Assembly: GCA_017560825.1 (NCBI GenBank)
Contig: JAFZED010000045.1
Coordinates: forward strand, 1-41,937
Source: Bacteroidales bacterium
Lineage (GTDB): Bacteria > Bacteroidota > Bacteroidia > Bacteroidales > UBA932
Reading direction: 5' to 3'
Length of the DNA: 41,937 bases
The stretch's first letter is position 1, and each line of letters opens with the position of its first letter. The notes beneath the pieces were generated by a model. That model had not been told where the DNA came from and made no database searches. It saw only the letters and a program-made list of their open reading frames with translations. Positions 7,122-39,581 of this stretch are shown here, one piece after another. The position numbers and the translations under genes are program-made.

Positions 7122-7216
7122 ACTAAACTCCAAAAATAGCAAAAAATCCGACTATTTAGAAATTTTACAGGACAAATATTTGCACTTCTGCTTTTTGATG
7201 TTTTTCTGAAAATTTT

Positions 7217-7249
7217 TTGTGCTCTCTGAAAGAAAAATTATTAACTTTG
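7217..7249 (+). promoter_or_regulatory. Promoter of the acidic-tailed protein and miaA
   Basis: TAACTTTG at 7242-7249 is an exact TAnnTTTG -7 box, and TTG at 7217-7219 sits about 22 bp upstream at the expected -33 distance. The predicted start point is near 7255, about 50 bp before the ATG at 7307. Confidence 0.55.
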
Positions 7250-7253
7250 ACTT

Positions 7254-7283
7254 CGCTTCTGCGCGTTGCAGAGGCGTTTTTTT
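7254..7283 (+). terminator. Hairpin plus T7 at the very start of the leader
   Basis: A 9-bp stem (7254-7262 with 7268-7276, one G-U pair) with a 5-nt loop and seven Ts. It has the form of an intrinsic terminator but lies right after the predicted transcription start and before the gene. No upstream plus-strand gene needs it, so it may be a 5'-end hairpin or an attenuator. Confidence 0.5.
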
Positions 7284-7306
7284 ACGCAATTCAATTCTAA
7301 CTGTCT

Positions 7307-22517: not shown

Positions 22518-22545
22518 TCTCAACGTGTAAAAAGGAAACATCAAT

Positions 22546-24438
22546 ATGAATGCTATAAAGAAAGTTTTATTGACTATCGCATCAGGACTTGCCCTCACCG
22601 GCTGTTTTGATATGACTGAGCATCCTTACACATTGCTTGATGCGTCTAACTATTTCACAGATGAGAATTCAGTCAAGCAGGTAATCGCACATATCTATGC
22701 TCAGGAGCAGAGCGACCTCTCAGAGTTGTACTGGTACGCTCAGGAGTTGTCAGCTGACCAGATCACCTGGCGTTCTTGGAACGGCGGATCTTGGGGTTGG
22801 GACTCAGGTGACAAGTTCGTGCTCTCTACACACACTTGGAATCCATCTTCAAACTATGTGAACAGAATCTGGAACGGTGCTTGGACTGCTATCGGACTCT
22901 GTAATAACTTCATCACTGACCTTTCAGGCATCAACGCTTCAGCTCTCGGCCTTTCAGAGGAGCAGAAGCAGGCTTACATCGACGAGGTACGTACATTCCG
23001 TGTGTATTGCTACTACAACGTATTCGAGGTGTTCGGTTCAGTTATTCCGTTGACAACATCTACTGACACATCAGTACTTCCTGTCAGCGCAATGGACGGT
23101 ATCACATTCGAGGAAGGTAACGCTAAGATCTGTGACTGGATGATCCAGGAGCTTGACGAGACTCTTCCTTCACTCGATGCAAACGGCTCAGTAAACCGTT
23201 GTAACCAGGCTATGAACCGTATGATCAAGATGCGTATCCTCCTCAACTCTGAGGTGTTCACAGGACAGCCACGTTTCGATGAGTGTAAACTTCTTGCAAA
23301 GGACATCATCGACGGTAAGTTCGGTTCATACGCAATCGCTGATGACTACAAGGCTATCTACTCTGCAAACAACAACACTGAGTGCAAGGAGATCGTGTTC
23401 GCATTCTCAAGCGACGTAGTTTACAACAAGAGATCTACCAATATGCGTAACGGTCCGTTTATGAGCTACGTGTTCTCAGCTTACTTCAACACTAAGGAAG
23501 AGCACGCTGGTTGGAACTGCTGCTGCGTAACCCCTTCATTCGACAACTCAAACAACTTCTACAACCAGTGCGTTGAATTCGACGCTAACGGTACAGCAAG
23601 TGTTGTGAAGGATATGTACGACAAGGAACTTGCAGTATGCTTCCTTGATGAGCAGTATGGTGACAAGCTCGGAGCAGTTATGGAGCGTTATGACCCACGT
23701 GACATCCGTCTCGTTGCACCTTACAATGATGCAGCTGGAAACTGGGGCGGTCACTTTATGAAGGGCGTTATCCGCGCTGACTTCGGTAAGGGTGAGCTTC
23801 AGATGGCAGATGCAGACCGTGACGGACAGCCGCTTGTATACGTTGACCAGGTCGGTAACTTCCAGGGCAAGGGTGAGCACCCTCTCCAGGTAGTCGAGAA
23901 CCCACGTTGGGGTGAGACTAACTCTGGTATCAGAGCTGCAAAATATCCTTACTACAACATCGACTCTCCTTTCAATTTCTGCGATCCAGACGTTGTTGAG
24001 TTCCGTCTTGCTGAGGTATACTACACTTATGCAGAGTGTCTCCTCCGTGAGGGTAACGCAAATGAGGCTAAGTCTTGGGTGAACCAGGTTCGTAAGAGAT
24101 ACTTCTCAGCTTCTGACTGGACAAACGGTTCAACAGTTGACGGAAGATCACTTGTAGGTGCACAGGATCAGGCTCCAAGAGGCTTCTCAGCAGAGTTCGA
24201 TGAAGACAGAATGCTCAGCGAGTGGGGACTCGAGTTCTTTGACGAGGGACACCGTCGTCGTACAGACCTCCGTCGTTTCGACAAGTTCACTCAGGGCCAG
24301 TGGTGGTTCTTCGGTAGAGCTACTGAGGTTGGATATGACCTCCCTGCACAGCGTGACCGCAAGTACGAGTGGTTCCCAGTTCCAGACAGAGCATTGGCTG
24401 CTAACCCTGGTCTGACACAGAATCCAAGCTATATGTAA
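22546..24438 (+). CDS. SusD/RagB-like outer-membrane glycan-binding lipoprotein
   Basis: Surface lipoprotein that binds the glycan and closes the SusC channel. 630 residues. Lipobox ends in Cys20 (ALTGCFDMTEHP). The SusD N-terminal pattern is seen in DASNYFTDENSVKQVIAHIY and the RagB/SusD C-terminal pattern in EFRLAEVYYTYAECLLREGNANEAKSWVNQVRKR (abridged: VEFRLAEVYYTYAE). The ending with GLEFFDEGHRRRTDLRRFDKF-like WGLEFFDEGHRR is also typical. It pairs with the SusC gene directly upstream. A hairpin lies after its stop codon, before the regulator genes. Confidence 0.94.
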   Translation: MNAIKKVLLTIASGLALTGCFDMTEHPYTLLDASNYFTDENSVKQVIAHIYAQEQSDLSELYWYAQELSADQITWRSWNGGSWGWDSGDKFVLSTHTWNPSSNYVNRIWNGAWTAIGLCNNFITDLSGINASALGLSEEQKQAYIDEVRTFRVYCYYNVFEVFGSVIPLTTSTDTSVLPVSAMDGITFEEGNAKICDWMIQELDETLPSLDANGSVNRCNQAMNRMIKMRILLNSEVFTGQPRFDECKLLAKDIIDGKFGSYAIADDYKAIYSANNNTECKEIVFAFSSDVVYNKRSTNMRNGPFMSYVFSAYFNTKEEHAGWNCCCVTPSFDNSNNFYNQCVEFDANGTASVVKDMYDKELAVCFLDEQYGDKLGAVMERYDPRDIRLVAPYNDAAGNWGGHFMKGVIRADFGKGELQMADADRDGQPLVYVDQVGNFQGKGEHPLQVVENPRWGETNSGIRAAKYPYYNIDSPFNFCDPDVVEFRLAEVYYTYAECLLREGNANEAKSWVNQVRKRYFSASDWTNGSTVDGRSLVGAQDQAPRGFSAEFDEDRMLSEWGLEFFDEGHRRRTDLRRFDKFTQGQWWFFGRATEVGYDLPAQRDRKYEWFPVPDRALAANPGLTQNPSYM

Positions 24439-24512: not shown

Positions 24513-25655
24513 ATGAAATCACTAGGCAAGGGAGTAGCCGTCATCCTGTCATTCGCCCTTATGCACGCGATTGTGACTGTTCTTTCGCGATGGCTGGGGC
24601 TGTCAGACGCCTTGTCCCTCACTACGCTTACTATGCTTATGGCAGTGACGCTCTGCCAGCTTGAAAAGACGCCTGTAGTGACTATGATCATAGCATTGGT
24701 CATAGTGAATTTCGGAGGATTTTACCTTGGTAAACTGATTGGAAAACTGCTCCATCTCTTTATCGAAAATACCTACATAAGAGGTGGTATTACCACTTTT
24801 ACTGCTACTGTCCTGTTAGGTTTCTTTGTGCTCCTGATCATATCACTGCTCAAGCGAAGCAAAAGCAGATTTATCGTGATGGAGATAAATACGTATTGGA
24901 TCCTACTCGTATTTACTGTCATCATTGTGGCCAGACAGAGCCTGGTGATGATCACTTCCCAAGCAAACTATGCAGGGACTACCACATTGAGCGTCATTAT
25001 AGACTACACCTTCTGCTCGGTAGCATTGTGCTATCTTGCAATCAATGCCGTGAATGAGACAAGAAAGGCTCAAAAGGCCAACGAGATGTCCAACATCACT
25101 AATTACAGCTATATACGTCTCCAGCAGCAGGTGAAGCCGCACTTTATGTTCAATAACCTGAACATACTTAACAGTCTTGTGATAGAGAACAAGAACCAGG
25201 AAGCCTCATCGTTCATATATAAACTTGCCTATCTGTATAGGTATATGATTGAGAATGAGGAAGAAAGTCTGGTTACAATCCGCGAAGAACTGGATTTTGT
25301 AAACGAATATACGGACTTGATGAAGGTCAGGTTCGGATCATCCTTCGATGTGGTGAATGAAATTGATGAGGAAATTCTTCCTAATTTTGTTGTGCCTTGT
25401 TCCATTCAGCTTCTCATAGAGAACGCGATAAAGCACAACGGAGGTACGACGCAGACGCCGTTGAACATACGTATGTATAACACGGCTACCCACATAGTGA
25501 TATGGAACAACAGGTTGAAGAAGAACACCTGTGAACCGACAACACACATCGGCCTTAATTATATACAGAAGTTGTACAGCGACTTAAGTCCCAAGGAACT
25601 GACAGTTGAATCAACAGAAGAAGAATTTATAGTAAGACTGCCGATAATAAGATAA
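24513..25655 (+). CDS. LytS/YehU-type sensor histidine kinase
   Basis: Inner-membrane sensor that should phosphorylate the next gene's product. 380 residues. The N-terminal ~185 residues carry about six hydrophobic segments with short loops and no large periplasmic domain. The His_kinase domain (PF06580) follows: phospho-acceptor His210 in VKPHFMFNNLNILNSL, then an ATPase region with IQLLIENAIKHN (N box) and a GLNYIQKLYS segment. The G boxes are weak, as usual for this family. The next gene starts 18 bp later. With no extracellular sugar-binding domain, it may sense the ligand within the membrane or through a partner. Confidence 0.9.
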   Translation: MKSLGKGVAVILSFALMHAIVTVLSRWLGLSDALSLTTLTMLMAVTLCQLEKTPVVTMIIALVIVNFGGFYLGKLIGKLLHLFIENTYIRGGITTFTATVLLGFFVLLIISLLKRSKSRFIVMEINTYWILLVFTVIIVARQSLVMITSQANYAGTTTLSVIIDYTFCSVALCYLAINAVNETRKAQKANEMSNITNYSYIRLQQQVKPHFMFNNLNILNSLVIENKNQEASSFIYKLAYLYRYMIENEEESLVTIREELDFVNEYTDLMKVRFGSSFDVVNEIDEEILPNFVVPCSIQLLIENAIKHNGGTTQTPLNIRMYNTATHIVIWNNRLKKNTCEPTTHIGLNYIQKLYSDLSPKELTVESTEEEFIVRLPIIR

Positions 25656-25673
25656 CCTAACCGGTAACCAGAT

Positions 25674-26444
25674 ATGAATATATTTATAGTTGAAGATGAG
25701 GTTGTAACCCAGATGGCTCTGGCAAGAATGCTGAACTCGACTTTCCCGGATGTGAAAGTCGTTGGAACAGCAAGGACAGTAAGAGAATCCGTAGATTTCC
25801 TGCGTTCGTGCGAAAGCGGGCAGCCTGATCTTATATTTATGGATGTGGAGCTTCAGGACGGTAACTGTTTCGATATATTCAGGCAGGTTGACATCACTTC
25901 AAATGTGGTGTTGACCACCGCATATCATAAATATGCAGTTGAAGCCTTCAGGGTAGGTTGTATAGATTACCTGCTCAAACCTATCGAACCTCAGGCCCTT
26001 TGTGGTGCAGTCGAAAGGTGCAGGAGAAATATGAATATAGTAAGCTCGAAAAGTCTTCTGACCTCGTTTGACGAATTTATGAAGAACAAGCCTATGGCTG
26101 ACAGGAAGATCAAGAAGAGATTCATCATCAAACTCGGTGATAATTTCGTTCTTGTACCTGTGTCTGACATAGCATATTTCTACACAGAAGACAATGCAAC
26201 ATATATAGTTACCAAAGAGGGAGTGAATTACATCATCAACTTCCCTCTGGACGTGATAATCACTCAGATAGACCTCAGTGAATTCTTCAGGATCTCAAGA
26301 TACTGCATTATTGCTCTTTCTGAGATAAGGGGAGTGGTCAAGATAAAGGGAGGTCGTCTTAAAGTAGTTACGGATTTTGAACCTAAATGTGAAATGACTG
26401 TTTCCAGGGCAAGAGTCGATGAGTTCCTGGAATGGCTTGCTTAA
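25674..26444 (+). CDS. LytTR-family response regulator
   Basis: DNA-binding regulator paired with the kinase upstream. 256 residues. The receiver domain has the acidic pair in IVEDEV (6-9), phospho-acceptor Asp57 in LIFMDVELQDG, and Lys in DYLLKPIEP near 107. The C-terminal ~110 residues form a LytTR domain (KRFIIKLGDNFVLVPVSDIAYFYTEDN, abridged: DIAYFYTEDNATYIV, then FFRISRYCIIAL). LytTR proteins bind short direct repeats. It lies within the PUL operon, 21 bp before the first GH13 gene, so it is the prime candidate to control the locus and itself. Confidence 0.92.
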   Translation: MNIFIVEDEVVTQMALARMLNSTFPDVKVVGTARTVRESVDFLRSCESGQPDLIFMDVELQDGNCFDIFRQVDITSNVVLTTAYHKYAVEAFRVGCIDYLLKPIEPQALCGAVERCRRNMNIVSSKSLLTSFDEFMKNKPMADRKIKKRFIIKLGDNFVLVPVSDIAYFYTEDNATYIVTKEGVNYIINFPLDVIITQIDLSEFFRISRYCIIALSEIRGVVKIKGGRLKVVTDFEPKCEMTVSRARVDEFLEWLA

Positions 26445-26465: not shown

Positions 26466-27824
26466 ATGAAGAATCTTTTTTCTGCCATCGCGATGGCATT
26501 GCTCGTTGTAGCTTGTACTGCGCCTGCACAGGTAGATCTGAAGGTCCCAGCACCTGAAGATGTGGTTATGTATCAGGTAAATCCGAGAAATTTTGCACCT
26601 GAGAATTCTTTCAATGCAGTCGTTTCTCACCTGGATTCAATCAAGACAATGGGCGCTAACGTGCTTTGGTTTATGCCTATTTATGAGATCGGTTCACTCA
26701 AGAGTGTAAACTCGCCTTACTCTATCAGAGACTACAGATCTGTAAACCCGGAGTTCGGTACAGTTGAGGATTTCAAGAATCTTGTTGCCGAGAGCCACAA
26801 GAGAGGTATGATCGTGATCATTGACTGGGTTGCAAACCACACATCGTGGGACAGCCAGTGGATCTACGACCATCCTGAGTGGTACACTCACGATGAGAAT
26901 GGAGAGATCATTCCACCTGCAGGAACAGGCTGGAACGATGTTGCTGACCTTGACTTCAGCAAGCCTGATATGTGTCAGGAGATGATCGACGCGATGAAGT
27001 TCTGGGTAGAGGAAGTCGGAGTGGACGGTTTCCGTTGCGACGCTGCGGATTTCGTGCCGTATGAGTTCTGGCAGGACTGTCTCCAGCAGCTTAGAGCAAT
27101 CGAGGGCAAGGAGCTCCTTATGCTTGCTGAGGGTGAGAGAAAGGATCATTTCGAGGCAGGATTTGATATGAACTATGCCTGGGGCTGGCTTGCAGCGCTC
27201 AGAAGAGTCTACAATGGCAACACATTCAACAGACAGCCTGGTCAGGGAAGAAGAGCTGGCGGTCCTGTGCCTGTAAGCTCACTCTTTACAGCAGACTCTC
27301 TTGAGTATGCCGGCCTTCCTGAGGGCAAGGTGAAGCTCCGCTTTACAACCAACCACGACGAGTGCGTGAAGATGTCTCCTGTACGCGAGTTCTTCGGCAC
27401 AGAGGGCTCTATGGCTGCATTTGTGGCTACTGCATACATCCACGGTGGTATCCTCGTGTATGGTTCTCAGGAGGTAGGTTATCCTGGAAAGATCAACTTC
27501 TTCAATTACGTTGACATTGACTGGGAGGCAAATCCTCATATGTACAAAGAGTACTGCGACCTCATCGCTGCATACAACGCAGAACCTGCCCTCAGAATGG
27601 GATCTCTTGTTCCGTATCCGGACAACAATGTCCTGATGTTCGAGAGAGTATATGGTGAGGATAAGATCCTTGTAGTCATCAATATGAGAGACACTCAGCA
27701 TCATATCGAACTTCCTCAGCAGTGGAAGGGACGCACTTGCACTGACGTCGTTTCAGGCGAGACTGTGACACTTCCTTCGGGAACTGAGCTCCTCAGACCT
27801 TTCGAATATTACGTAGTGAAATAA
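26466..27824 (+). CDS. GH13 alpha-amylase-family lipoprotein
   Basis: Cleaves alpha-glucosidic bonds by the retaining GH13 mechanism. 452 residues; a signal peptide with lipobox ends in Cys17 (LLVVAC), so it is membrane-anchored. Catalytic set: nucleophile Asp192 (GFRCDAADF), acid/base Glu222 (MLAEGERKD), transition-state Asp298 (TTNHDE); the region I motif is DWVANHT. It has no N-terminal cyclomaltodextrinase-type domain, so it is a compact amylase resembling the enzyme at 39678-41018. A loop near 250-266 is rich in Arg, Gln and Gly (RQPGQGRRAGG). Exact product pattern cannot be told. Confidence 0.9.
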   Translation: MKNLFSAIAMALLVVACTAPAQVDLKVPAPEDVVMYQVNPRNFAPENSFNAVVSHLDSIKTMGANVLWFMPIYEIGSLKSVNSPYSIRDYRSVNPEFGTVEDFKNLVAESHKRGMIVIIDWVANHTSWDSQWIYDHPEWYTHDENGEIIPPAGTGWNDVADLDFSKPDMCQEMIDAMKFWVEEVGVDGFRCDAADFVPYEFWQDCLQQLRAIEGKELLMLAEGERKDHFEAGFDMNYAWGWLAALRRVYNGNTFNRQPGQGRRAGGPVPVSSLFTADSLEYAGLPEGKVKLRFTTNHDECVKMSPVREFFGTEGSMAAFVATAYIHGGILVYGSQEVGYPGKINFFNYVDIDWEANPHMYKEYCDLIAAYNAEPALRMGSLVPYPDNNVLMFERVYGEDKILVVINMRDTQHHIELPQQWKGRTCTDVVSGETVTLPSGTELLRPFEYYVVK

Positions 27825-27835
27825 TACCTTAAACT

Positions 27836-29854
27836 ATGAAAAAGTTTGTCAGCATTTTCTTGCTCGCGATCTGTTGCGTGTCAGCGCACGCAACAGACAT
27901 CCAGCGAGTAGATCCTCCTTTCTGGTATGCCGGAATGAAAAACACCGAGCTTCAGATTATGTTCTATGGTCAGAAGATCGCAGAATCTTCCTTCTCTATG
28001 GAGAAATATGAAGGAGTGACCGTCAAGGAGGTCTGTCAGGTGGAGAATCCTAACTACCTGTTCGTCTATCTCGATGTCACCGCAAAGGCAAAGCCTGGTA
28101 ACCTTACTTTCCAGTTCAAGGAAGACAGGAAGGTGACAAAGCGTGAGTTTGAGCTCCGTCCGAGGAATGAAAAGCAGGGTGCGATGGGATTTACTCCTGC
28201 AGATGTGCTCTACCTTATTATGCCGGACCGTTTCGCGAATGGAAATCCTGACAACGACAATCTCGACGGTTACATCGCAAACCGTCAGGGCGGAGGACGT
28301 CACGGTGGTGATCTTCAGGGAATTATGGATCACCTCGATTATATCGATGACCTTGGTGTGACAGCTGTGTGGCTCAATCCTATCCAGTTCAACAAAGGAA
28401 ACAATTCCCACGGTTATTCGATCTCAGACTATTATCTCGTGGAGCCTCGCCTTGGATCAAACGAAGAGTATTGCGCAATGATTGATGCTGCTCACGCAAA
28501 GGGCATCAAGGTGGTTATGGATATGATCTTCAACCACAGCGGAAGCTCGCACTGGTGGATTACCGACGTACCTACTTCAGACTGGTTCAATCAGAATGAC
28601 CAGGCTGTGAAGACAGGTGAGAGGATAAAGGAGCAGGAAGCTAATCGTGGAAAGCAGCAACAGCAGCAGCGCCAGTTCAGCGGTTATCGCAGGCAGCAGG
28701 TACAGATGCCTGCGACTGTAGCTGAGTTCGAGGCGCTTCCACAGGAGCAGAAAGATGCGCTTATCAGACAGCACACCCACAATGAGGATGCATTGGTGAC
28801 CACAACGCATTACAAGTGGACCCTTCTTGATCCGCACGCACCTCAGACAGAAAAAGACATCCTTGTACAGGGATGGTTCTCAGGTGGAATGCCTGACTTG
28901 AATCAGAAAAACCGTCACCTCGGCACTTACCTCATCCAGAACAGTATCTGGTGGATCGAGTACTCGAGAATCGACGGTATCAGAATGGACACCTATCCTT
29001 ACGCAGACTTTGACTTTATGGCAAGATGGTGCGAGGAGATCAACAACGAGTATCCGGACTTCAACATCGTAGGTGAGGGATGGTATCCGCGTAACTCGGC
29101 CGCAGGTTGGTGGCAGGGTGGTTCTACCGTACACAATTCGGACTCAAAGCTCAAGACCGTTATGGACTTTGACCTTACCTTCACGACTCAGAATGAGATC
29201 CTTAAGGAGAGCAACACAAGCGAAGGCTCAGAGGCAGGACTCTTCAAGATGTATGAGTGCGTGACACAGGACTTCCTGATCCCGGATCCGAACTATGTGC
29301 TCACTTTCCTTGACAACCACGACATCGCAAGATTTATGAAGCCTGGCGATCCGATCTGGAAGTTCAAGCAGGGACTCGCTTTCCTCCTTACCACAAGAGG
29401 AATCCCACAGATCTATTATGGAACTGAAATTATGATGGGAGTGACCGGCACAGACCAGCTGCGTGCTGACTTCCCAGGAGGATGGGCAGAGGACGAGAAG
29501 TCGGCCTTTACTGCAGAAGGCAGAACTCCGGAGCAGAATGAGAGCTGGAACTTTGCAAGTACCCTTCTCAACTGGAGAAGGACTTCAAAGGCGGTGGCAG
29601 AGGGTAAGCTCATCCATTATACACCGGACAACAGGACAAAGTGCTACGTCTATGCCCGTACAAACGGTGAGGAGACCGTTTTGGTGATTCTTAACGGCAG
29701 CGACACAATGAGACTCGTGGATATGCACAGATTCTCAGAGGTCGTAAAGGACAACACAAAGGGTAAGGATGTTGTGACAGGAGAGGTTGTAGACCTTACT
29801 TCTCTTGTGAAGATCGAGCCAAGAGGCGTGTATGTACTTGAACTAAGCAAATAA
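27836..29854 (+). CDS. SusA-like GH13 neopullulanase/cyclomaltodextrinase, periplasmic
   Basis: 672 residues with a signal peptide (CVSAHA, residue ~19), so likely periplasmic. The N-terminal ~100 residues are a Cyc-maltodextrinase N-domain (VDPPFWYAGMKNTELQIM), then the GH13 barrel and a C-terminal beta domain. Catalytic set: Asp385 (GIRMDTYPYA), Glu414 (IVGEGWY), Asp496 (LDNHDIARF). SusA of Bacteroides thetaiotaomicron, of the same type, degrades imported maltooligosaccharides. Residues ~257-320 form an extra Gln/Arg-rich stretch (KQQQQQRQ) absent from the paralogues downstream. Starts 11 bp after the previous gene. Confidence 0.9.
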   Translation: MKKFVSIFLLAICCVSAHATDIQRVDPPFWYAGMKNTELQIMFYGQKIAESSFSMEKYEGVTVKEVCQVENPNYLFVYLDVTAKAKPGNLTFQFKEDRKVTKREFELRPRNEKQGAMGFTPADVLYLIMPDRFANGNPDNDNLDGYIANRQGGGRHGGDLQGIMDHLDYIDDLGVTAVWLNPIQFNKGNNSHGYSISDYYLVEPRLGSNEEYCAMIDAAHAKGIKVVMDMIFNHSGSSHWWITDVPTSDWFNQNDQAVKTGERIKEQEANRGKQQQQQRQFSGYRRQQVQMPATVAEFEALPQEQKDALIRQHTHNEDALVTTTHYKWTLLDPHAPQTEKDILVQGWFSGGMPDLNQKNRHLGTYLIQNSIWWIEYSRIDGIRMDTYPYADFDFMARWCEEINNEYPDFNIVGEGWYPRNSAAGWWQGGSTVHNSDSKLKTVMDFDLTFTTQNEILKESNTSEGSEAGLFKMYECVTQDFLIPDPNYVLTFLDNHDIARFMKPGDPIWKFKQGLAFLLTTRGIPQIYYGTEIMMGVTGTDQLRADFPGGWAEDEKSAFTAEGRTPEQNESWNFASTLLNWRRTSKAVAEGKLIHYTPDNRTKCYVYARTNGEETVLVILNGSDTMRLVDMHRFSEVVKDNTKGKDVVTGEVVDLTSLVKIEPRGVYVLELSK

Positions 29855-29863
29855 CACTGAAAT

Positions 29864-32800
29864 ATGAAGAACATAAGATTGGCATTGGTGGCGGCTATGC
29901 TGCTTCTCTTTGCCGGATTCAAAGCTGAAGCAGCTGAAATCCAGCATCTCGATCCTCCTTGCTGGTGGGTCGGAATGAAGAATACAGAACTCCAGATTAT
30001 GGTTCACGGACCGGAGATCTCAAAGTCAAAAGTGGAGATCAAGTATCCGGGAGTGACCATCAAGGAAGTGGTCAAGACAGAGAACCCTAACTATCTCTTC
30101 ATCTATCTGAACATCGCTCCTAAGACCAAGCCGGGCAAGATGGACATCGTCTTCAAGGAAGGCAAGGAGAAGACTGTCTATGAGTACGAACTTCTTCCAA
30201 GAAGCAAGAAGGAGGGAGCCGCAGGATTCACTTCTGCCGACGTCCTCTACCTTATCACTCCAGACCGTTTCGCAAACGGTGATCCTTCAAACGACACCAT
30301 CGGTGGCGCGAGAATGAGCCGTGAGAGATCCGGTGCAAGACACGGTGGAGACATCAAGGGTGTGACAGACAACCTCGATTACATCAAGGACCTTGGCGTG
30401 ACAGCCATCTGGCTCAACCCTGTACAGGAAAACAATGCCAACACCTATCACGGCTACGCGATCACAGACTTCTACGACGTTGACCCTCGTTTCGGTACAA
30501 TGGCGGAGTACATCGAGATGATCGACAAGGCACACGAGAAGGGTCTCAAGGTGGTTATGGATATGATCTTCAACCACTGCGGAAGCTCACACTGGTGGAT
30601 GAACGACCTTCCTACAGGTGACTGGCTCAACTTCAACAATACATATGTGCCTACAAGCCATCAGAAGTGGACTCAGGTGGACCCTCACGCCGCACCGTCA
30701 GAGAGAAAGCTCTTCACAGACGGTTGGTTCAACGCCGGAATGCCTGACCTGAACCAGAAGAACCCTCTCGTTAGCGACTATCTTATCCAGACATCTACCT
30801 GGTGGATCGAGTACGCAAGAATTGACGGTATCCGACAGGATACACATCCTTATATGGATGCTGAATTTGCTGCAAAGTGGTGCAAGGCTACAATGGACGA
30901 GTATCCTGAATTCAACATCACAGGTGAGACCTGGTACCCTGTGGGCAGCGGTTTCCCAGCTTGGTGGCAGAAGAATTCGAAATTCAGCCCTATCAACAGC
31001 AACCTTACTTCGGTAATGGACTTCAACCTTGCGTTCATCGTTCCGACTGCGTTTACAGACACAAACATTCCGGACGACGGAAAGGCTCAGGGTCTGTTCA
31101 ATATCTACGTTTCGATGGCGAACGACTTCCTTTATCCGGATCCGAACAGCGTCCTCATATTCCTTGACAACCACGACCTCGGACGATTCTCGACTACCGA
31201 GGACGTAGGTCTGAACAAGTACAAGCAGGGTGTTGCCTTCATCCTCACTACTCGTGGTATCCCGCAGATCTACTACGGTACTGAGCTTCTCTTTACAGGT
31301 ACAAAGCAGGAAGGTGACGGTGTCATCCGTAAGGATATGCCGGGCGGATGGGAAGGTGATGAAAGGTCTGTCTTTACAGCTGAGGGCAGAACTGCTGAGG
31401 AAAATGAGGCGTGGAACTATATGAGCCGCATCCTCAACTGGCGTCAGAACTCAAAGGCGGTGAAGCACGGCTCGCTGATTCAGTACGCTCCGCTTCACGA
31501 TCACGGAGACTGCTATGTATATGCAAGAATCAAGGATGACGAGACAGTTCTCGTTGTGCTCAACGGCTCTGACAACGATGTGACCATCGATATGTCGAGA
31601 TATGACGACGTGATGAAGAACTTCACCGCAGGTGTGGACGTGATCACAGGCGAGAACTTCGACCTCACAGGTACCCTCGATGTGCCGGCAAGAGGTACAT
31701 ATATCTTCGATCTTAAGGAGCTTGCCCCTAAGGCTCCTACATCGGTGAACATTCCTGCTCCTGAGTACGCACAGTTCTCGGAGGGTCTCATCGACAACAT
31801 TACAGCTCAGGGCTGGCTCAAGGAGATCCTTGTACGCCAGCAGGAAGGCCTCACAGGTCATCCTGAAGCTATGGCCTATCCTTACAACTCTTGCCTGTGG
31901 GCAGGAGAACTTGAGAGAGACTCAGAGTCTCGTGGCGCTGACTGGTGGAGATTCGAGCAGACTGCATACTATCTTGACGGAATGACCAGACTCGGTTATC
32001 TCCTCGATGACGAGAAGTTCCTCAAGATCTGGCAGGAGAACATTGACTATGTGCTCGCACATCCGCTTCCAGCAAAGAAGGGTATCGACATCGAGACCCA
32101 GAAGAAGATGGAGCAGGAACGCAGAGCTCAGAGGGGAGGACAGCGTGGCAATTTCGATGCTCAGGTGTCTGCGGATCCACGTCTTCGCCAGAGAATGGCC
32201 GCTCAGCAGGCCCGTCGCGAGAAGCAGATGAGGATCAATGCTATAGACCGTCCTGAAGGACGCCTCGGCCCTGAGACCAGTTCTATGGCCTGGCCGTTTG
32301 CTGTGTTCTTCAGAGCAGTGCAGGCTTATTATGAGGTTACAGGTGATCCACGCATTCCGGAGGCACTTGAGAAGAACTACCTCTCATATCCTGTTGAGGA
32401 ACTTGGAATGGACCGTTTCGTGGTCAATGTAGAAGGCATCCTCTGGACATATTCGATCACTAAGAATCCGGCTCTTCTTGACCTTGCCATCAAGGCTTGG
32501 GATGAGGACGCTTCAAACCTTACGCAGGAGACTTGTCTTGACGATTCAGAGTTCCATATGCACGGTGTGACTATGAACGAGCTGATGAAGATCCCTATGA
32601 TCCTCTATGCACACACCGGCAAGGAGGAGTACCTCCAGGCAGCTCTCAAGGCTGATTACAAGATGGAGACCCCTAATATGCTCATCGACGGAATCAATTC
32701 CAGTACAGAGGCTCTTGCTGGCAATGATCCGCTTGCAAGCCACGAGACTTGTGACGTGACAGACTACACCTGGACTATGGGCTACTACCTTATGACTACA

Positions 32801-33781
32801 GGAGATGCGCAGTGGGCTGACAGGATAGAGAAAGGTATCTTCAACGGCGGACTCGGATCAATCACAAAGGATTTCCGTTCGATGCAGTATTTCTCTTGCC
32901 CTAACCAGTTCATCGCGACAGGTAATTCCAACCACAACGGCTTCAAGTACGGTCTGACCTGGATGGCTTACCGTCCTATCCACGAGACAGAGTGCTGCAT
33001 CGGCAACCTTCACAGATATATGCCTAACTATGTAGCCAGAATGTGGCTGAAGGATAAGAAAGGCCACCCTGTAGCTGCGCTTTACGGCCCTTCATCAGTG
33101 GTTTACGATCTTGGAGAAGGTGTCACTGTGAAGATCGACGAGATCACTGAGTACCCGTTCGAGGAGCAAGTCAAGTTCAAGTTTACATTCTTCAAAGATG
33201 GAAAGAGATCTAACGAGTCTCACGCAATGGATTTCACTTACAGAATTCCTGGCTGGTGCAAGGCTGCCGAGACAGGTTTCCATACCGAGAGCAAGGAGTG
33301 GAAGAGCGGTGACGTTTTCACTGTAAGACTCCCGATGCAGATCGAGGTTGTGGACAATCCTGTTCAGGGAAAGTGCATTCAGAGAGGCCCTATCGTGTAC
33401 TCTTACGCTATCCCTGCAAACTGGGTTGAGGACAACAAGATCTATGACAACCTTGCAGGAAAGGTGTCTGCAAACCCTGACTTCAAGAGCTGGGAGCTTA
33501 CTCCTGCCGGAAAGTGGAACTACGGACTTGTAAATAGCATGCTCAGAGGTCTCAGAGTACAGAGAACCGGCAGCAAGGGTTTCCCATTCGATCCGGAGTC
33601 AGTGCCTGTTAAGATCAGAGTACCTGTAAAGGCTGTCAAGGGCTGGACTCTCAAGGAGGACAGATTCACCCCAGCGCTTCCGGAGATTGTAGAGGCTGAA
33701 AGTGACGAAGTCGAGTTCATCGAACTTGTTCCGTACGGCAGTACAACACTCCGACTCACTACCTTCCCGGTGTTTGAGTAA
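29864..33781 (+). CDS. Fusion enzyme: SusA-like GH13 plus GH127-type (DUF1680) domain
   Basis: 1305 residues with a signal peptide (AEA, residue ~23). Residues 24-630 are a complete SusA-like GH13: N-domain (LDPPCWWVGMKNTELQIM), Asp326 (GIRQDTHPY), Glu355 (ITGETWY), Asp438 (LDNHDLGRF), C-domain. Residues ~650-1305 match DUF1680/GH127: helical barrel, then Glu961 and Cys963 (HETCDVTDY) and Cys1044-Cys1045 (ETECCIGNLHRYMPNY). These equal the zinc ligands and Cys nucleophile of beta-L-arabinofuranosidase HypBA1; spacing of 81 versus 77 residues agrees. Glu949 could be the acid. Residues ~740-800 are an Arg/Gln-rich insertion. No frameshift or internal start explains the join, so this is a real fusion. 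The second substrate is unknown. Confidence 0.88.
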   Translation: MKNIRLALVAAMLLLFAGFKAEAAEIQHLDPPCWWVGMKNTELQIMVHGPEISKSKVEIKYPGVTIKEVVKTENPNYLFIYLNIAPKTKPGKMDIVFKEGKEKTVYEYELLPRSKKEGAAGFTSADVLYLITPDRFANGDPSNDTIGGARMSRERSGARHGGDIKGVTDNLDYIKDLGVTAIWLNPVQENNANTYHGYAITDFYDVDPRFGTMAEYIEMIDKAHEKGLKVVMDMIFNHCGSSHWWMNDLPTGDWLNFNNTYVPTSHQKWTQVDPHAAPSERKLFTDGWFNAGMPDLNQKNPLVSDYLIQTSTWWIEYARIDGIRQDTHPYMDAEFAAKWCKATMDEYPEFNITGETWYPVGSGFPAWWQKNSKFSPINSNLTSVMDFNLAFIVPTAFTDTNIPDDGKAQGLFNIYVSMANDFLYPDPNSVLIFLDNHDLGRFSTTEDVGLNKYKQGVAFILTTRGIPQIYYGTELLFTGTKQEGDGVIRKDMPGGWEGDERSVFTAEGRTAEENEAWNYMSRILNWRQNSKAVKHGSLIQYAPLHDHGDCYVYARIKDDETVLVVLNGSDNDVTIDMSRYDDVMKNFTAGVDVITGENFDLTGTLDVPARGTYIFDLKELAPKAPTSVNIPAPEYAQFSEGLIDNITAQGWLKEILVRQQEGLTGHPEAMAYPYNSCLWAGELERDSESRGADWWRFEQTAYYLDGMTRLGYLLDDEKFLKIWQENIDYVLAHPLPAKKGIDIETQKKMEQERRAQRGGQRGNFDAQVSADPRLRQRMAAQQARREKQMRINAIDRPEGRLGPETSSMAWPFAVFFRAVQAYYEVTGDPRIPEALEKNYLSYPVEELGMDRFVVNVEGILWTYSITKNPALLDLAIKAWDEDASNLTQETCLDDSEFHMHGVTMNELMKIPMILYAHTGKEEYLQAALKADYKMETPNMLIDGINSSTEALAGNDPLASHETCDVTDYTWTMGYYLMTTGDAQWADRIEKGIFNGGLGSITKDFRSMQYFSCPNQFIATGNSNHNGFKYGLTWMAYRPIHETECCIGNLHRYMPNYVARMWLKDKKGHPVAALYGPSSVVYDLGEGVTVKIDEITEYPFEEQVKFKFTFFKDGKRSNESHAMDFTYRIPGWCKAAETGFHTESKEWKSGDVFTVRLPMQIEVVDNPVQGKCIQRGPIVYSYAIPANWVEDNKIYDNLAGKVSANPDFKSWELTPAGKWNYGLVNSMLRGLRVQRTGSKGFPFDPESVPVKIRVPVKAVKGWTLKEDRFTPALPEIVEAESDEVEFIELVPYGSTTLRLTTFPVFE

Positions 33782-33816: not shown

Positions 33817-36219
33817 ATGAAAGTTAAGAGATTTTTAGCAGCCTTTTTTGCAGGTCTGCTTGCCCTTACCAGTGCCTTTGCAGTCGAAAATGACCCTGTT
33901 GCCAATCCGAAAGCACAGGTTGTAGCAGGCAACGCAAGATTCACTGTACTCACAGACAGACTCATCAGAATGGAGTGGGCTGAGAACGGAAAGTTCGAGG
34001 ACAATGCCACACTCGCGATAATCAACAGAAACCTTCCAGTACCTGCTTTCACTACAACAAAGACTGGCGAAGGCGTACAGATCAAGACAGGCGCATTGAC
34101 TTTGAAATATAATGGAAAAGGTAAGTTTGACCAGAGCAACCTTTCTGTAACATTCAAACTCAACGGCAAGACAGTGACTTGGTATCCTGGAAAAGAGGAC
34201 ACAGGCAACCTTATGGGAACTGCCCGTACTCTCGACGGATGTATGGGACCTGAAAAGATCAACAACAACGACCCGATGGAGCTCGGTATCGTTTCACGCG
34301 ACGGTTGGGCGATCGTTGACGAGAGCCAGCGCCATATCTTCGTGAAGGATGACTCTGATTGGGGAGAATGGGTGCAGGCGCGACCTGAGGGTGATGTGCA
34401 GGACCTCTATATCTTCGCATATGGCCACGACTACACCGCAGCCCTTGCTGACTTTACAAAGGTGGCAGGAAAGATTCCTCTTCCTCCTAAGTACGTGTTC
34501 GGTTACTGGTGGAGCCGCTATAAGGCATATTCGGCTGACGAACTCATCGACCTTGGCAAGGAGTTCCGTACCAGAAACATCCCTATGGACGTGATGATCA
34601 TCGATATGGACTGGCACGAGACCTGGCAGAGAAGCTCACGCACTCACCGCAGGGACGAGTTCGGCCAGAGCATAGGTTGGACAGGCTATTCTTGGAACAG
34701 GGACCTCTTCCCTGACACCAAGGGTTTCCTTGCAGAGCTCCACGATATGGGCTTCAAGACAGCTCTCAACCTCCATCCTGCATCAGGTATCAGCGTGAGA
34801 GAGGACAGCTATGAGGATTTTGTGGCTGACTATCTTTCAAGAACAGATGACTACGATGGTCCTGAGGGTTACATCTACAAGGGTGGCGATAAGATCACCG
34901 ACAAGAGAACTGCAGTAAAGGGTTACCGAGCTACAGTGCCTTTCAGAATGTCGCAGCAGGAGTGGGCTGACGCTTACTTCAATTCTGTGATCCATCCGCT
35001 TGAGGCAGAAGGAATCGACTTCTGGTGGCTTGACTGGCAGCAGTGGAAGCTCAGCAAGTATGTTGACAACCTCAGCAATACATTCTGGCTCAACTACACC
35101 TTCTTCAACGACAAGGTAAGACGCAACCGCGACAAGTCTGCTGAAGAGAGCGAGAGACCTATGACATACCACCGTTGGGGTGGTCTCGGAAGCCACCGCT
35201 ATCAGCTCGGCTTCTCGGGTGACACACACATTCTTTGGGATGTGCTCGGCTATCTTCCATATTTTACAGCTACAGCCTCTAACGTGGGTTACGGCTATTG
35301 GGGCCACGACCTCGGCGGACATATGCAGAGAGGCCAGATTCCTACAGATCCTGAACTCTACACAAGATGGCTCCAGTACGGAGTCTTCTCGCCACTCTTC
35401 AAGACTCACTGTACAAGCTCGGAGATCATCGAGAGACGTATCTGGACATTTGAGAACCATTATGAGCATATGAAGGACGCATTCGAGCTCCGCTATGCAC
35501 TCACTCCATATATCTACGATGCCGCAAGACAGACCTACGACACAGGTGTATCACTCTGCCGCCCTATGTACTACTCTAACCCTGAGAAGGCTGAGGCTTA
35601 CGACTACAAGGAGCAGTATATGTTCGGAGACAACATCCTCGTGGCTACAGTATGTCAGCCTGTGGACACTCTCACAGGTGTTGCAAAGAGAGATGTATGG
35701 TTCCCTGCAGGCAATGACTGGTACGATATGGCTCATCTCCAGATGATCAAGGGCGGAAGCAAGAAGACCCTTGAGTACACTATCGCAGAAAACTGCTGGT
35801 TCGTGAAGGCCGGTGCGATCATCCCAATGGCTCACGAGGGCATCCAGAACCTCCAGGACAAGACAAATGCCCTCCGCATCTATGTGGCTCCGGGCAAGGG
35901 CAAGTCTACATACAGACATTATGAGGATGACGGCGTAAGCCAGGCATACGAGACAGACTATGCTACAACCGACATCACCAAGAATGCCACATCGTCATCT
36001 TGCACAGTGACAATCGGAGCACGCAAGGGCTCTTACAAGGGTATCGACGCTCAGAGGGACCTTACAATCGTTCTCGGCGGTCTCAGCAAGAAGCCTGCTT
36101 CAGCTAAGATCGGTGCAGAGAACCTTGAGGTAACCTACGACGCAGCTTCCAAGGAGGCAAGCGTGAAGCTTCCTGTCCTCCAGGCAGATTCACCTGTAAC
36201 AGTTGTCATCAAGTACTAA
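33817..36219 (+). CDS. GH31 family alpha-glucosidase-like enzyme
   Basis: Exo-acting retaining alpha-glycosidase, expected to release glucose from non-reducing ends. 800 residues; signal peptide ends near SAFA (residue 22), periplasmic. N-terminal beta-sandwich, then the barrel with IIDMDWHETW (271-280), nucleophile Asp406 in DFWWLDWQQW, and acid/base Asp469 in GFSGDTH; HRWGGLGSHR also fits. C-terminal beta domains follow. It may fill the role that GH97 SusB has in the classic Sus system; no GH97 is seen here. Could also be an alpha-1,6- or alpha-1,3-acting member. 35 bp after the fusion gene, a larger gap than its neighbours. Confidence 0.9.
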   Translation: MKVKRFLAAFFAGLLALTSAFAVENDPVANPKAQVVAGNARFTVLTDRLIRMEWAENGKFEDNATLAIINRNLPVPAFTTTKTGEGVQIKTGALTLKYNGKGKFDQSNLSVTFKLNGKTVTWYPGKEDTGNLMGTARTLDGCMGPEKINNNDPMELGIVSRDGWAIVDESQRHIFVKDDSDWGEWVQARPEGDVQDLYIFAYGHDYTAALADFTKVAGKIPLPPKYVFGYWWSRYKAYSADELIDLGKEFRTRNIPMDVMIIDMDWHETWQRSSRTHRRDEFGQSIGWTGYSWNRDLFPDTKGFLAELHDMGFKTALNLHPASGISVREDSYEDFVADYLSRTDDYDGPEGYIYKGGDKITDKRTAVKGYRATVPFRMSQQEWADAYFNSVIHPLEAEGIDFWWLDWQQWKLSKYVDNLSNTFWLNYTFFNDKVRRNRDKSAEESERPMTYHRWGGLGSHRYQLGFSGDTHILWDVLGYLPYFTATASNVGYGYWGHDLGGHMQRGQIPTDPELYTRWLQYGVFSPLFKTHCTSSEIIERRIWTFENHYEHMKDAFELRYALTPYIYDAARQTYDTGVSLCRPMYYSNPEKAEAYDYKEQYMFGDNILVATVCQPVDTLTGVAKRDVWFPAGNDWYDMAHLQMIKGGSKKTLEYTIAENCWFVKAGAIIPMAHEGIQNLQDKTNALRIYVAPGKGKSTYRHYEDDGVSQAYETDYATTDITKNATSSSCTVTIGARKGSYKGIDAQRDLTIVLGGLSKKPASAKIGAENLEVTYDAASKEASVKLPVLQADSPVTVVIKY

Positions 36220-36225
36220 GGCTAT

Positions 36226-38157
36226 ATGAAAAGATTTTTCTACTTATCAATATTGCTCGTAGCAGCTGCTTGTGCAGGGCCGAAATTCGACCCTGCCAAG
36301 GTGGCTGATGCAGATGCGACCCAGGTTGCTCACGTTGAACCGCTGTCCTGGTGGACAGGAATGAAGACACCTCTCCAGCTTCTTGTCAATGGAGAGAACA
36401 TCTCGGCGTACGACCTGACAATAGAAGGTGGCAGGGGAGTCTCTGTAAAGGAGATCCACAAGGCAGACAGCCCTAACTACGTCTTTGTAGATGTTGAGGT
36501 AAATGCCAATGCAGCCCCCGGAACCTACTACCTTGTATTCAGCAAGGACGGTCAGTCATTCAAGTGGCCGTACGAGATCGCTGCACGTGAGGCGGGCTCG
36601 GCAGAGCGCGCAAGCTTCACAACTGCGGATATGGTCTATCTCATTATGCCGGACCGCTTTGCCAACGGTGACCCGGGCAATGACTCTACAGATGACACAG
36701 CTGAGGACGCAGACAGAACAAGACTCGGCGGTCGTCACGGAGGTGACATCCAGGGTGTGATCGACCATCTCGATTATATCGCTGAGCTCGGAGCGACAGC
36801 AATATGGGCAACTCCGTTCCTCCTCGATGACGCAAGAAGAGGGTCGTACCACGGCTATGCAGCTTCGGATTATTACAAGATTGACCCTCGTTTCGGAACA
36901 AACGACCTTTATAAGGAATATGTGGACAAGGCTCACGAGAAGGGCATCAAGATCCTTATGGACATCGTGACTAACCACTGCGGAAGCGAGCACTGGTGGA
37001 TGAAGGACCTTCCTTTCCAGGACTGGGTGCACCAGTTCCCTTCATACACAGGAACAAACGGCAAGTTCTCTACTCATATGGACCCTAATGCCTCTGAGAG
37101 AGACCTGAACTACCACGAAAGCGGATGGTTCTCACGCGCAATGCCGGATATGAACCTTGACAATCCTTACGTGCTGAAGTATTTCCAGCAGTGGGGTATC
37201 TGGTGGATCGAGTTCTCAGGCCTGGACGGCTTCAGAGTGGACACTTATCCTTACAACGAGAAGCAGCCTATGGCTGACTGGTGTGCGGCTATCGTCAACG
37301 AGTACCCGAACTTCAATATAGTAGGTGAGTGCTGGACCGGAAACATCCCTCAGCTTGCATACTGGCAGGGTGGAAACGCCAACAACGACGGTTTCAACTC
37401 GAACCTCCCGTCAATTATGGACTTCCCGCTTCACGATGCCATCCGTTCAGGTCTGGCACCGGCTCAGCAGGGCAGAAACTCAAGAGGCGGAAGCATATCC
37501 AGAGTCTATGACATCCTTGCAAATGACTTCATCTATCACGATCTTTCGAAGATGCTCATCTTCCCTGGCAACCACGACACAGACCGTATCGGAGATGTTG
37601 TCGGAAAGTCAGCTTCAAAGCAGAAGATTGCAATGGCTATGATGGCTACAATGCGTGGTATCCCGCAGATCTTTGCCGGTGACGAGATGATGTTCGTGTC
37701 AAAGGATCCTCGTTCGGGACATCCTGGTCTGAGAGTTGACTTTCCGGGCGGTTGGCCGGGAGACGAACTTGACTGGTTTACAGAGGCAGGAAGAAAGGAG
37801 ATGACAGTAAATACTGCAGGTGATGAGGTCGAGAAAGGCCAGGCTGCAGACCTGTTTGACTATGTCAGCCACCTCTTCCAGTGGAGAAAGACCAAGGAAG
37901 TGATCCACAGCGGCAAGACCCTTCATTTTATGTCAAGAGGCAACAACTACGGCTACTTCCGTTACAATGACACAGATGCTGTGTTTGTCTTCGTAAATGC
38001 TTCAGCAGAGCCAGTAAATGTCCCTTGGTCGACATATGCAGAGATCGGCGAAAGCCTCAAGGACGGCAAGGATGTGATCACAGGAGAGTCGGTAGCTATA
38101 ACTGACGAGACTGTAGTTGCGCCTGAAACAGCCCTCATCGTTGAATTCAAAAGATAG
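36226..38157 (+). CDS. SusA-like GH13 enzyme, lipoprotein
   Basis: 643 residues. Third copy of the cyclomaltodextrinase-type architecture in this operon but, unlike the other two, lipid-anchored: lipobox ends in Cys16 (LLVAAAC). N-domain (VEPLSWWTGMKTPLQLLVNG), then GH13 with Asp339 (GFRVDTYPYN), Glu368 (IVGECWT) and Asp451 (PGNHDTDR). The barrel has ATPFLLDDA where the others have LNPVQ/LNPIQ, so the subsite differs. A short Gln/Arg/Gly/Ser-rich loop (PAQQGRNSRGGS) lies near 412-423. Starts 6 bp after the GH31 gene. Confidence 0.9.
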   Translation: MKRFFYLSILLVAAACAGPKFDPAKVADADATQVAHVEPLSWWTGMKTPLQLLVNGENISAYDLTIEGGRGVSVKEIHKADSPNYVFVDVEVNANAAPGTYYLVFSKDGQSFKWPYEIAAREAGSAERASFTTADMVYLIMPDRFANGDPGNDSTDDTAEDADRTRLGGRHGGDIQGVIDHLDYIAELGATAIWATPFLLDDARRGSYHGYAASDYYKIDPRFGTNDLYKEYVDKAHEKGIKILMDIVTNHCGSEHWWMKDLPFQDWVHQFPSYTGTNGKFSTHMDPNASERDLNYHESGWFSRAMPDMNLDNPYVLKYFQQWGIWWIEFSGLDGFRVDTYPYNEKQPMADWCAAIVNEYPNFNIVGECWTGNIPQLAYWQGGNANNDGFNSNLPSIMDFPLHDAIRSGLAPAQQGRNSRGGSISRVYDILANDFIYHDLSKMLIFPGNHDTDRIGDVVGKSASKQKIAMAMMATMRGIPQIFAGDEMMFVSKDPRSGHPGLRVDFPGGWPGDELDWFTEAGRKEMTVNTAGDEVEKGQAADLFDYVSHLFQWRKTKEVIHSGKTLHFMSRGNNYGYFRYNDTDAVFVFVNASAEPVNVPWSTYAEIGESLKDGKDVITGESVAITDETVVAPETALIVEFKR

Positions 38158-38162
38158 ATTCT

Positions 38163-39581
38163 ATGTTTAGGAATATATTGACAATAGTCGCCGTATCTCT
38201 CGGCCTTGCACACGCAGCGGCCGCTGAGACGGTCCTGTACCCGGCAGTGCCGGGTATGAGGACGAGCGAGGTGTATTCCATCGCTGTCAACGGTGAAAAT
38301 GCCTGGGTTGAGGCAGTTGGTCCGGGTGGAATGGAAGACCTTCACACCCTGAACTTCTCTGCGGAAGGCAAGCAGACTATCGTCATCTCAGTAAATGAGG
38401 ACATAGAAAGCTACACAATCCAGCCCAAGAGCTATGGAATAAAGGGAGAGACCGACGGCAAGACCCTTACCGTCAGCATTGACGAGCCGATGAAACTTTA
38501 TATCAGGATCAACAACCTCCCTTATCTTGCAGTCTTCGCCAACCCTCTTGAAAAGAAAGCGCCTTCAAAAAAGGACAAGAATGTGGATTATTATGGCCCA
38601 GGCAACCACGATGTTGGAGAAATCAACGTCCGTGACGGCCAGACCATATATATAGCAGGAGGTGCGAACGTGAACGGACGCCTCGTCGGCACGGCGAAGA
38701 ACGTCACAATCTGCGGACGCGGCTCATTTACGGGCAACGCAAGACTCAACGATTGCGAAAACCTTGTGGTCGATGGCATATATATGAGGAATACCCGCGG
38801 ATGGGCGAACACCATCACCATCAGCGTCAACACGACATATCACAATGTAAAGATATTCAGCCACACAGGTGTGTGGGGTCTTGACGGCATCAATCCGGTG
38901 TCCTGCAAGGGCTTTGATATCGATGACTGCTTCATCCGTACAAGAGACGACTGTATTGCCATCAAGTCCAACGGCGATCCAGAGAAATTTGACCTCAGCT
39001 CCCGTGATATAACCATCCGTAACAGCACAATGGTCGGTTGGGACCACGCGGACGGTGTCACTCTTGGCTTTGAGCTCAATGGCGGTGTGGTAGAGAACAT
39101 CAAAGTCTATAACTGCGACATCTTGTCTGCAAGAGGTTCGGGAAGAACCGGCGGTCACGCTGCTTTCAGCATAGTCTGCGACGGAGCATCAGAGGTGAAG
39201 AACATCTTCTTTGAAGACATCCGTGTGGAGGCTGCAATCGAATACAAGAACCTGGAGATCATCCTTACAGAGGCTGAACGCTACGGAAACGGTAGAATGG
39301 GTTCCATTTCCGGTGTCTATCTCAAGAACATCTCCTGGGAGAATGCCTTCAAGCCATTCACTATCGTAGGACATCCTACAAAGTATGTGGAGAACGTAGT
39401 GTTCACCAACTGCTATGTCGGCGGCAAGCTCCTGACAGGAGTGGAAGATGCCGATTTCCAGATGGAATTCACCAGAGACATCGTATTTGTTCCTGGTGGA
39501 AAAGTAAAATATGAAAGATATCCTGAACAGGACGGAGAAATCAAGTCAAGAGTTTCCGGTCAGAGAAGGATACAGAGATAA
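38163..39581 (+). CDS. Right-handed beta-helix glycosidase, GH28/GH49-like, atypical
   Basis: 472 residues, signal peptide (AHAAAA, residue ~21). Residues ~25-135 look like a beta-sandwich; ~150-440 form a right-handed beta-helix with many V/I-x-N-x-x-I rungs. Three Asp line up with GH28: Asp241 (GLDGINP) and Asp262-Asp263 (RDDCIAIKS), spaced by 21 residues as Asp180/201/202 of polygalacturonase II. The GHG His motif is replaced by HADGVTLG (295-302) and the RIK motif is missing. GH49 dextranases (same clan GH-N) share an N-terminal sandwich plus DD. In an alpha-glucan operon a GH49-like activity is plausible; polygalacturonase is unlikely. Last gene of the plus-strand operon. Confidence 0.75.
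   Translation: MFRNILTIVAVSLGLAHAAAAETVLYPAVPGMRTSEVYSIAVNGENAWVEAVGPGGMEDLHTLNFSAEGKQTIVISVNEDIESYTIQPKSYGIKGETDGKTLTVSIDEPMKLYIRINNLPYLAVFANPLEKKAPSKKDKNVDYYGPGNHDVGEINVRDGQTIYIAGGANVNGRLVGTAKNVTICGRGSFTGNARLNDCENLVVDGIYMRNTRGWANTITISVNTTYHNVKIFSHTGVWGLDGINPVSCKGFDIDDCFIRTRDDCIAIKSNGDPEKFDLSSRDITIRNSTMVGWDHADGVTLGFELNGGVVENIKVYNCDILSARGSGRTGGHAAFSIVCDGASEVKNIFFEDIRVEAAIEYKNLEIILTEAERYGNGRMGSISGVYLKNISWENAFKPFTIVGHPTKYVENVVFTNCYVGGKLLTGVEDADFQMEFTRDIVFVPGGKVKYERYPEQDGEIKSRVSGQRRIQR

Follow-up and report, generated by a model that had tools for sequence, protein, structure and literature searches.

Why should a single gene encode both an amylase and a domain whose mechanism is known from arabinofuranoside trimming, and on what would such a protein act? 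The question is raised by a gene in a 41,937-nucleotide contig from Bacteroidales bacterium (GenBank assembly GCA_017560825.1, contig JAFZED010000045.1), which was analyzed over its whole length and is called the window here. In this gene, a SusA-type GH13 enzyme is followed in the same frame by a PF07944/DUF1680 domain, for which we use the name C127 (coordinates in the table below). The explanation that we favor, with somewhat better than even confidence, is that the product of the gene is a glycosidase of two domains, located in the periplasm and belonging to a SusC/SusD α-glucan locus, with GH13 paired with a retaining C127 cysteine glycosidase that would remove a terminal sugar blocking the amylase or the neighboring GH31. 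The periplasmic location is inferred from signal peptides recognized by eye and from likeness to SusA.

The first-pass annotation of the sequence had proposed that one uninterrupted frame (29864 to 33781) joins the two parts and that the first part is a SusA-like GH13 enzyme with Asp326, Glu355, and Asp438 in its active site. Both proposals hold: the frame encodes 1305 amino acids with no internal stop, and the three residues lie at those positions, in the contexts GIRQD, GETW, and DNHD, all aligned with the neopullulanase SusA, the nearest solved relative of this half (PDB 9fyz; E, 9.6e-190). In Pfam, Cyc-maltodext_N (PF09087; residues 29 to 113; 2.7e-33), Alpha-amylase (PF00128; 131 to 488; 1.5e-53), and Cyc-maltodext_C (PF10438; 538 to 615; 7e-22) all exceed their cut-offs, giving the half a three-domain, cyclomaltodextrinase-like architecture; provisionally, it would fall into GH13_46, which we take to be the CAZy subfamily of the SusA type. 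The same search places Beta-AFase-like_GH127_cat (PF07944) at residues 855 to 1055 of the C-terminal half (1.1e-13; 51.4 bits, with the cut-off at 24.9), in a match that spans only profile positions 181 to 373 of 376, and Glyco_hydro127M at residues 1072 to 1137 (9.4e-07), in line with the DUF1680 assignment made from the letters alone.

The fusion is not peculiar to this contig. When genome contigs were scanned with the C127 half, a fused frame was found in 11 of 33 other loci (labeled here with L and a number), and a frame spanning both halves is present in 12 of 300 same-genus genomes, the window's included, among the matches listed; the two sets overlap, several of their contigs being equal in length. 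The fused proteins recur down to 63% identity, and the architecture that the annotation proposed to look for in other Bacteroidales does occur there. Because the same frame is seen in other loci and genomes, we regard the fusion as natural rather than as a product of chance or of assembly. An assembly or sequencing error joining two genes could appeal to the close relatives L003 and L004, which keep the genes separate, but the recurrence refutes it and leaves its probability negligible. In 18 of the 33 loci, C127 is unfused with its frame start in view, two of these (L003 and L004) having it directly behind a separate GH13 gene (GH13c), and in four (L015, L021, L033, and L034) the frame runs off the contig and fusion status is undecidable. 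The records are mostly titled metagenome-assembled genomes of Bacteroidales or Bacteroidia, many of the titles naming rumen, omasum, cecum, or feces; Cryptobacteroides appears in two titles, uncultured Bacteroides in two others, and Porphyromonadaceae in one. Gene and strand calls around these loci are longest-frame picks; in L023 and L105, the pick fell on a reverse frame that masked the fused gene, which the locus and same-genus scans and the later GH13 tree do show. The neighborhood survey excluded the window's own gene (L001 and L035). Across all 12 fused proteins (window plus 11 loci), the catalytic residues of both halves are identical. Nei-Gojobori dN/dS ratios are 0.014 to 0.160 for GH13 (7 pairs, one further pair having been dropped for saturated dS) and 0.011 to 0.112 for C127 (8 pairs), dS being above 1 in several of the other pairs. 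Both halves are under purifying selection and, judged by their residues, look active.

What kind of enzyme, then, is C127? The first-pass annotation had called it a GH127-type domain with zinc-thiolate residues Glu961, Cys963, Cys1044, and Cys1045. These residues do align with GH127 chains, and the acid/base glutamate, which had gone unnamed, is E949; the domain as a whole, by its motifs and profile scores, is a divergent DUF1680 branch and not a GH127 enzyme proper. E949, E961, C963, C1044, C1045, H900, E989, N1048, and R1051 are invariant across the 41 C127 domains of our alignment A1, which comprises the window domain, L002 to L033, and L040 to L047 (L001, L035, the partial L034, the near-copies L036 to L039, and the distant L048 to L054 were left out). 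Profile-profile comparison with 18 canonical GH127 proteins gave a probability of 99.7 (E, 1.6e-25; 485 columns; 22% identity) and matched the ETC and CC motifs of the two sets to each other and E949 to the catalytic Glu of GH127. A PDB search with the single sequence also returned GH127 enzymes as best, if weak, matches (top E, 1.5e-4), and the 41-domain profile scored 4qjy at 81.8, 6ex6 at 70, 5mqo at 67.5, 3wkw at 46.3, and the GH146 chain 5opj at 39.8 bits. GH127 chains thus reach 46 to 82 bits with the C127 profile, compared to 484 to 1163 bits with the canonical one.

The divergence is concentrated in the N-terminal half of the domain. The GH127 motifs SHExYxxGH, GHxxxE, DGYL, and GHAVR, found in 16, 18, 18, and 17 of the 18 canonical proteins, respectively, are each absent from all 41 C127 domains, which instead have HGVT (41/41), CCxGNxHR (41/41), and DWWRxEQxAYYxDG (37/41). 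For the GH127 enzyme HypBA1, we take C340 and C418 to be zinc ligands, and the roles of H194, H270, and E366 are likewise assumed. PMC10728902 gives E322, E338, and the nucleophile C417 for this enzyme, with H142 bound to O5 and C415 described as not conserved; our HypBA1 numbering follows that source and a count along chain 7exu, in which Gln replaces the catalytic Glu of 3wkw. Two positions ahead of the CC pair, 38 of the 41 C127 domains have T and the other 3 have V, so that none has a cysteine there, and their acid/base glutamate precedes the zinc-binding one by 12 residues in 37 domains and by 13 in 4. In alignment A3, a charged insertion of C127 is not shared by the ten sequences that are more distantly related. 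With the zinc-thiolate and acid/base residues conserved and the N-terminal motifs missing, the chemistry of C127 seems to have been kept and its sugar-binding side rebuilt; since the N-terminal alignment with GH127 is weak, the loss of substrate-binding residues is read from the missing motifs. Given the missing motifs and the 22% identity, C127 is not to be called an arabinofuranosidase, and we rejected "ordinary GH127" as a label, keeping it as a rival for function. The idea of a GH127-type domain with a new specificity, also raised in the first reading of the sequence, is a fair one.

Features of the window discussed in the text (positions in the 41,937-nucleotide stretch)
Feature	Position	Strand	Remarks
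Fused GH13-C127 gene	29864..33781	+	ATG start, 1305 aa, single frame without internal stop
N-terminal signal peptide of fused protein, residues 1-23	29864..29932	+	By eye; no lipobox cysteine seen
GH13 SusA-type half, residues 25-617: N-domain, catalytic barrel, C-domain	29936..31714	+	Pfam; SusA 9fyz match
GH13 catalytic triad	30839..31177	+	D326 (30839), E355 (30926), D438 (31175); SusA alignment
Junction, residues 618-633	31715..31762	+	In the split relatives L003/L004, a stop is followed here, after a short gap, by a second signal peptide
C127 half, residues 634-1305, divergent PF07944/DUF1680 domain	31763..33778	+	Pfam, relatives, alignment, profile comparison
Charged insertion in C127, about residues 737-795	32072..32248	+	Alignment A3
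H900 (HGVT motif)	32561..32563	+	Aligns with GHAVR histidine of GH127; invariant 41/41
E949, putative acid/base	32708..32710	+	Aligns with E322 of HypBA1; invariant 41/41
E961 and C963 (HETC), putative zinc ligands	32744..32752	+	Align with E338, C340 of HypBA1; invariant 41/41
C1044 (putative nucleophile) and C1045 (putative zinc ligand), ECC	32993..32998	+	C1044 corresponds to C417 of HypBA1; invariant 41/41
SusC and SusD genes	19557..24438	+
Histidine kinase and LytTR response regulator (two-component pair)	24513..26444	+
Two further GH13 genes, GH13a and GH13b	26466..29854	+	Pfam
GH31, nearest solved relative GH31_u1 α-1,3-glucosidase	33817..36219	+	PDB search
GH13d, SusA-type	36226..38157	+	Pfam
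GH28-like gene	38163..39581	+	Nearest solved relative exo-polygalacturonosidase
GH13-e, locus end	39678..41018	-	Pfam

The distribution of the domain and the trees indicate how the two halves came together. At E ≤ 1e-60, no match to C127 occurs in 294 other genomes drawn across the class, and a search of 299 genomes of the family found it in 12 other genomes, all in the window's genus, where C127 at ≥60% identity occurs in 31 of 300 genomes among the matches listed. Weaker relatives, mostly about 24 to 37% identical, are more widespread in the family search, and those aligned (A3) have the ExC and CC motifs as well. As a family, PF07944 occurs often in the order, with matches in 65 of 149 genomes; among the scores listed, that of the window's copy is one of the lowest (54 bits compared to 457 for the best). 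The GH13-fused state requires two changes on the C127 tree and five on the GH13 tree, at least four of them forced by supported branches; the C127 tree and the first GH13 tree are quick searches, and the later GH13 tree excludes the copies L001, L097 to L100, L106, L108, and L116, as well as hits below 600 bits or 450 residues. By these trees, the GH13 and C127 genes were joined or separated more than once. As the fused GH13 halves are spread over two paralogue clades, GH13c (window) and GH13b (L014, L019, L105, L107, and L109), the GH13 tree gives no support to a single fusion event; alternatively, the genes may have fused once and then undergone several splits as well as recombination between GH13b and GH13c-C127, which lie in tandem.

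Other arrangements are found among the relatives. L003 and L004 have the two genes as direct neighbors in a locus like that of the window, with the GH13 stop 11 to 12 bases ahead of C127, which has a lipoprotein-like signal of its own; in the window, this stop and second signal are missing and the frame continues (signals by eye). In L110, broken GH13c pieces (6845 to 7340) directly precede an intact stand-alone C127. Among the matches listed, a GH13c orthologue (65 to 88% identity) is unfused in five genomes (G647, G096, G474, G568, and G524), all of which also carry C127 at 61 to 90%, compared to the 31 of 300 genomes that have it at ≥60%; as statistics, this co-occurrence is weakened by shared ancestry. 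That the two are sometimes joined and sometimes apart hints that GH13 and C127 work together on an α-glucan. SusA-type GH13 also stands behind another GH13 domain in two proteins of 1002 and 1009 residues (L117, 2396 to 5401, and L118, 2099 to 5125, both on the minus strand). Further long frames of about 1002 to 1009 residues occur among the matches listed in same-genus genomes.

The surroundings of the fused gene bear on its substrate. The locus runs, in order, through SusC, SusD, the two-component pair, GH13a, GH13b, the fusion, GH31, GH13d, and the GH28-like gene, with GH13-e on the opposite strand, and so holds four GH13 genes besides the fused one. The GH31 protein is closest to LlGH31_u1 (7wj9; E, 5.1e-125, compared to 1.8e-43 for the next different protein), with which its DWQQ and GHD-GGH stretches align by eye and which is reported to prefer nigerose (PMC9061262). 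The fused or side-by-side pair comes with a homologue of this GH31 (66 to 96% identity) in L002, L003, L004, L016, L017, L019, L025, L030, and L109; none at this identity was seen near L005, L006, L007, L105, and L107, nor on the short contig L023, and the GH31 in the L014 neighborhood is only 26% identical. The GH31 and the locus content fit a mixed-linkage or decorated α-glucan, without the context naming the sugar. The GH28-like gene within this locus recurs in several relatives. Directly behind the pair in L003, L004, L017, L025, and L030, and further off in L016, lies an alkaline phosphatase gene (PF00245 in L003, 12017 to 13516), which was searched for in the window and not found there.

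Under our favored explanation of a GH13-C127 glycosidase acting on an α-glucan, the GH13 half would cut imported α-1,4-linked oligosaccharides, as SusA does, and C127 would be a retaining exo-glycosidase, with zinc-bound C1044 as the nucleophile at the anomeric carbon and E949 as the acid/base, that takes off a single terminal sugar at which the GH13 and GH31 enzymes are halted; the fusion would then put two successive steps in one compartment at equal dose. The specificity of C127 is probably new. The N-terminal half of the barrel, which carries a substrate-binding histidine in GH127, seems rebuilt, and the sugar removed is therefore probably not β-L-arabinofuranose; our best guess is an α-D-configured terminal unit on an α-glucan that also holds α-1,3 links. 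A precedent for an α-linked D-sugar exists within GH127: the annotation's statement that known GH127 substrates are arabinofuranosides is incomplete, since other members of the family release α-1,3-linked 3,6-anhydro-D-galactose (PMC5698469). Several observations weigh against this explanation. In the related locus L101, C127 is missing from the 19 kb fetched, its genome carrying C127 elsewhere; C127 also occurs alone, away from α-glucan genes, with just 2 of the 18 unfused loci placing it beside GH13 (some loci are short) and stand-alone copies neighboring M48 peptidase, A2M, GH123 with GH20, GH3, GH2, carboxylesterase, or pectate lyase genes. Even among fused loci, L005 to L007 adjoin GH123-type genes and not other GH13 genes, and L014 and L107 adjoin GH97. 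Moreover, C127 is fused to GH3 in L055 (4764 to 8987, minus strand; 1408 aa), beside a GH123 gene, and its N-terminal half aligns poorly with GH127. Finally, the two proteins checked in which SusA-type GH13 is joined to a second GH13 suggest that fusion of neighboring genes may be cheap or common here.

C127 might instead be an ordinary β-L-arabinofuranosidase that trims plant or glycoprotein sugars, its fusion to an amylase being a side effect of gene order, as the other fusions of SusA-type GH13, the zinc-thiolate center and acid/base shared with GH127, the herbivore-gut habitats in the record titles, the pectin-type GH28-like gene of the window, and the pectate lyase adjoining C127 in L032 would allow; we nevertheless consider it unlikely, because the N-terminal motifs are missing throughout, the fused gene lies among α-glucan genes with no arabinan family in the 11 locus genes scanned, and the fusion involves two GH13 paralogues. 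A narrower form of the favored explanation, contained within it and rather doubtful as it stands, has C127 acting, as a zinc-thiolate α-glucan enzyme, on glucosyl links of the α-glucan itself, such as α-1,3 or other side-chain units. It draws on the GH31 homologue beside or near the pair in the window and nine loci, on the simultaneous lack of C127 and GH31 in the fetched part of L101, and on the anhydrogalactose precedent (PMC5698469), but no such GH31 surrounds L005 to L007, L014 (the 26% one), L105, or L107, and C127 also occurs away from glucan genes. That C127 is a noncatalytic, carbohydrate-binding or structural module would suit its weak similarity to characterized enzymes; it is improbable given the invariance of the catalytic-center residues in 41 of 41 domains and the low dN/dS. 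Returning to the α-glucan glycosidase, we tentatively extend it, at less than even confidence, to the proposal that C127 represents a new group of zinc-thiolate (cysteine) glycosidases that act on α-glucans, remove from them a terminal sugar or a side linkage not yet described, and have repeatedly been joined to a SusA amylase. At E ≤ 1e-60 in the sampled genomes, matches to the group have so far come from a single genus of gut-associated Bacteroidales.

The annotation's remark that no enzyme with this pairing has been described is not contradicted by the titles and abstract beginnings of the open-licence literature, none of which, among the matches listed, describes GH13 with GH127/DUF1680; no paper there has DUF1680 together with α-amylase, and no characterized member of the C127 branch of DUF1680 was found. 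If our explanation is true, a mechanism known from arabinofuranoside trimming serves α-glucan breakdown, the fused enzyme points to a decorated or mixed-linkage α-glucan in the herbivore gut, and a DUF1680 branch gains a substrate handle. If the proposed C127 group is real, herbivore guts would contain a decorated α-glucan undescribed by starch biology.

How does the fused protein compare with known enzymes? SusA (9fyz) matches the GH13 half over residues 19 to 615 with an identical catalytic triad, whereas its PDB chain, of 610 residues, lacks the C-terminal glycosidase domain. HypBA1 (3wkw) and 4qjy share with C127 the aligned zinc tetrad Glu-Cys-Cys-Cys and the acid/base Glu; they differ in the N-terminal motifs, which C127 lacks at 22% identity to a canonical GH127, and in the spacing between the acid/base and zinc-binding glutamates, which is 16 in HypBA1 numbering and shorter in C127. 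GH127 also includes aceric acid hydrolase, whose model NF049879 is the sole NCBIfam match of the C127 half (residues 325 to 548 of that half), yet the score of 61.4 bits compares with a curated cut-off of 950. GH146 (5opj) is likewise a weak match of the C127 profile and scores below the GH127 chains in the same search, and we rejected a GH146 identity for C127 on this ground. The DagA enzymes of Zobellia are likened to C127 by their description in PMC5698469: these GH127 α-1,3-(3,6-anhydro)-D-galactosidases act on an alpha-linked D-hexose derivative, in a carrageenan locus and not in one for α-glucan.

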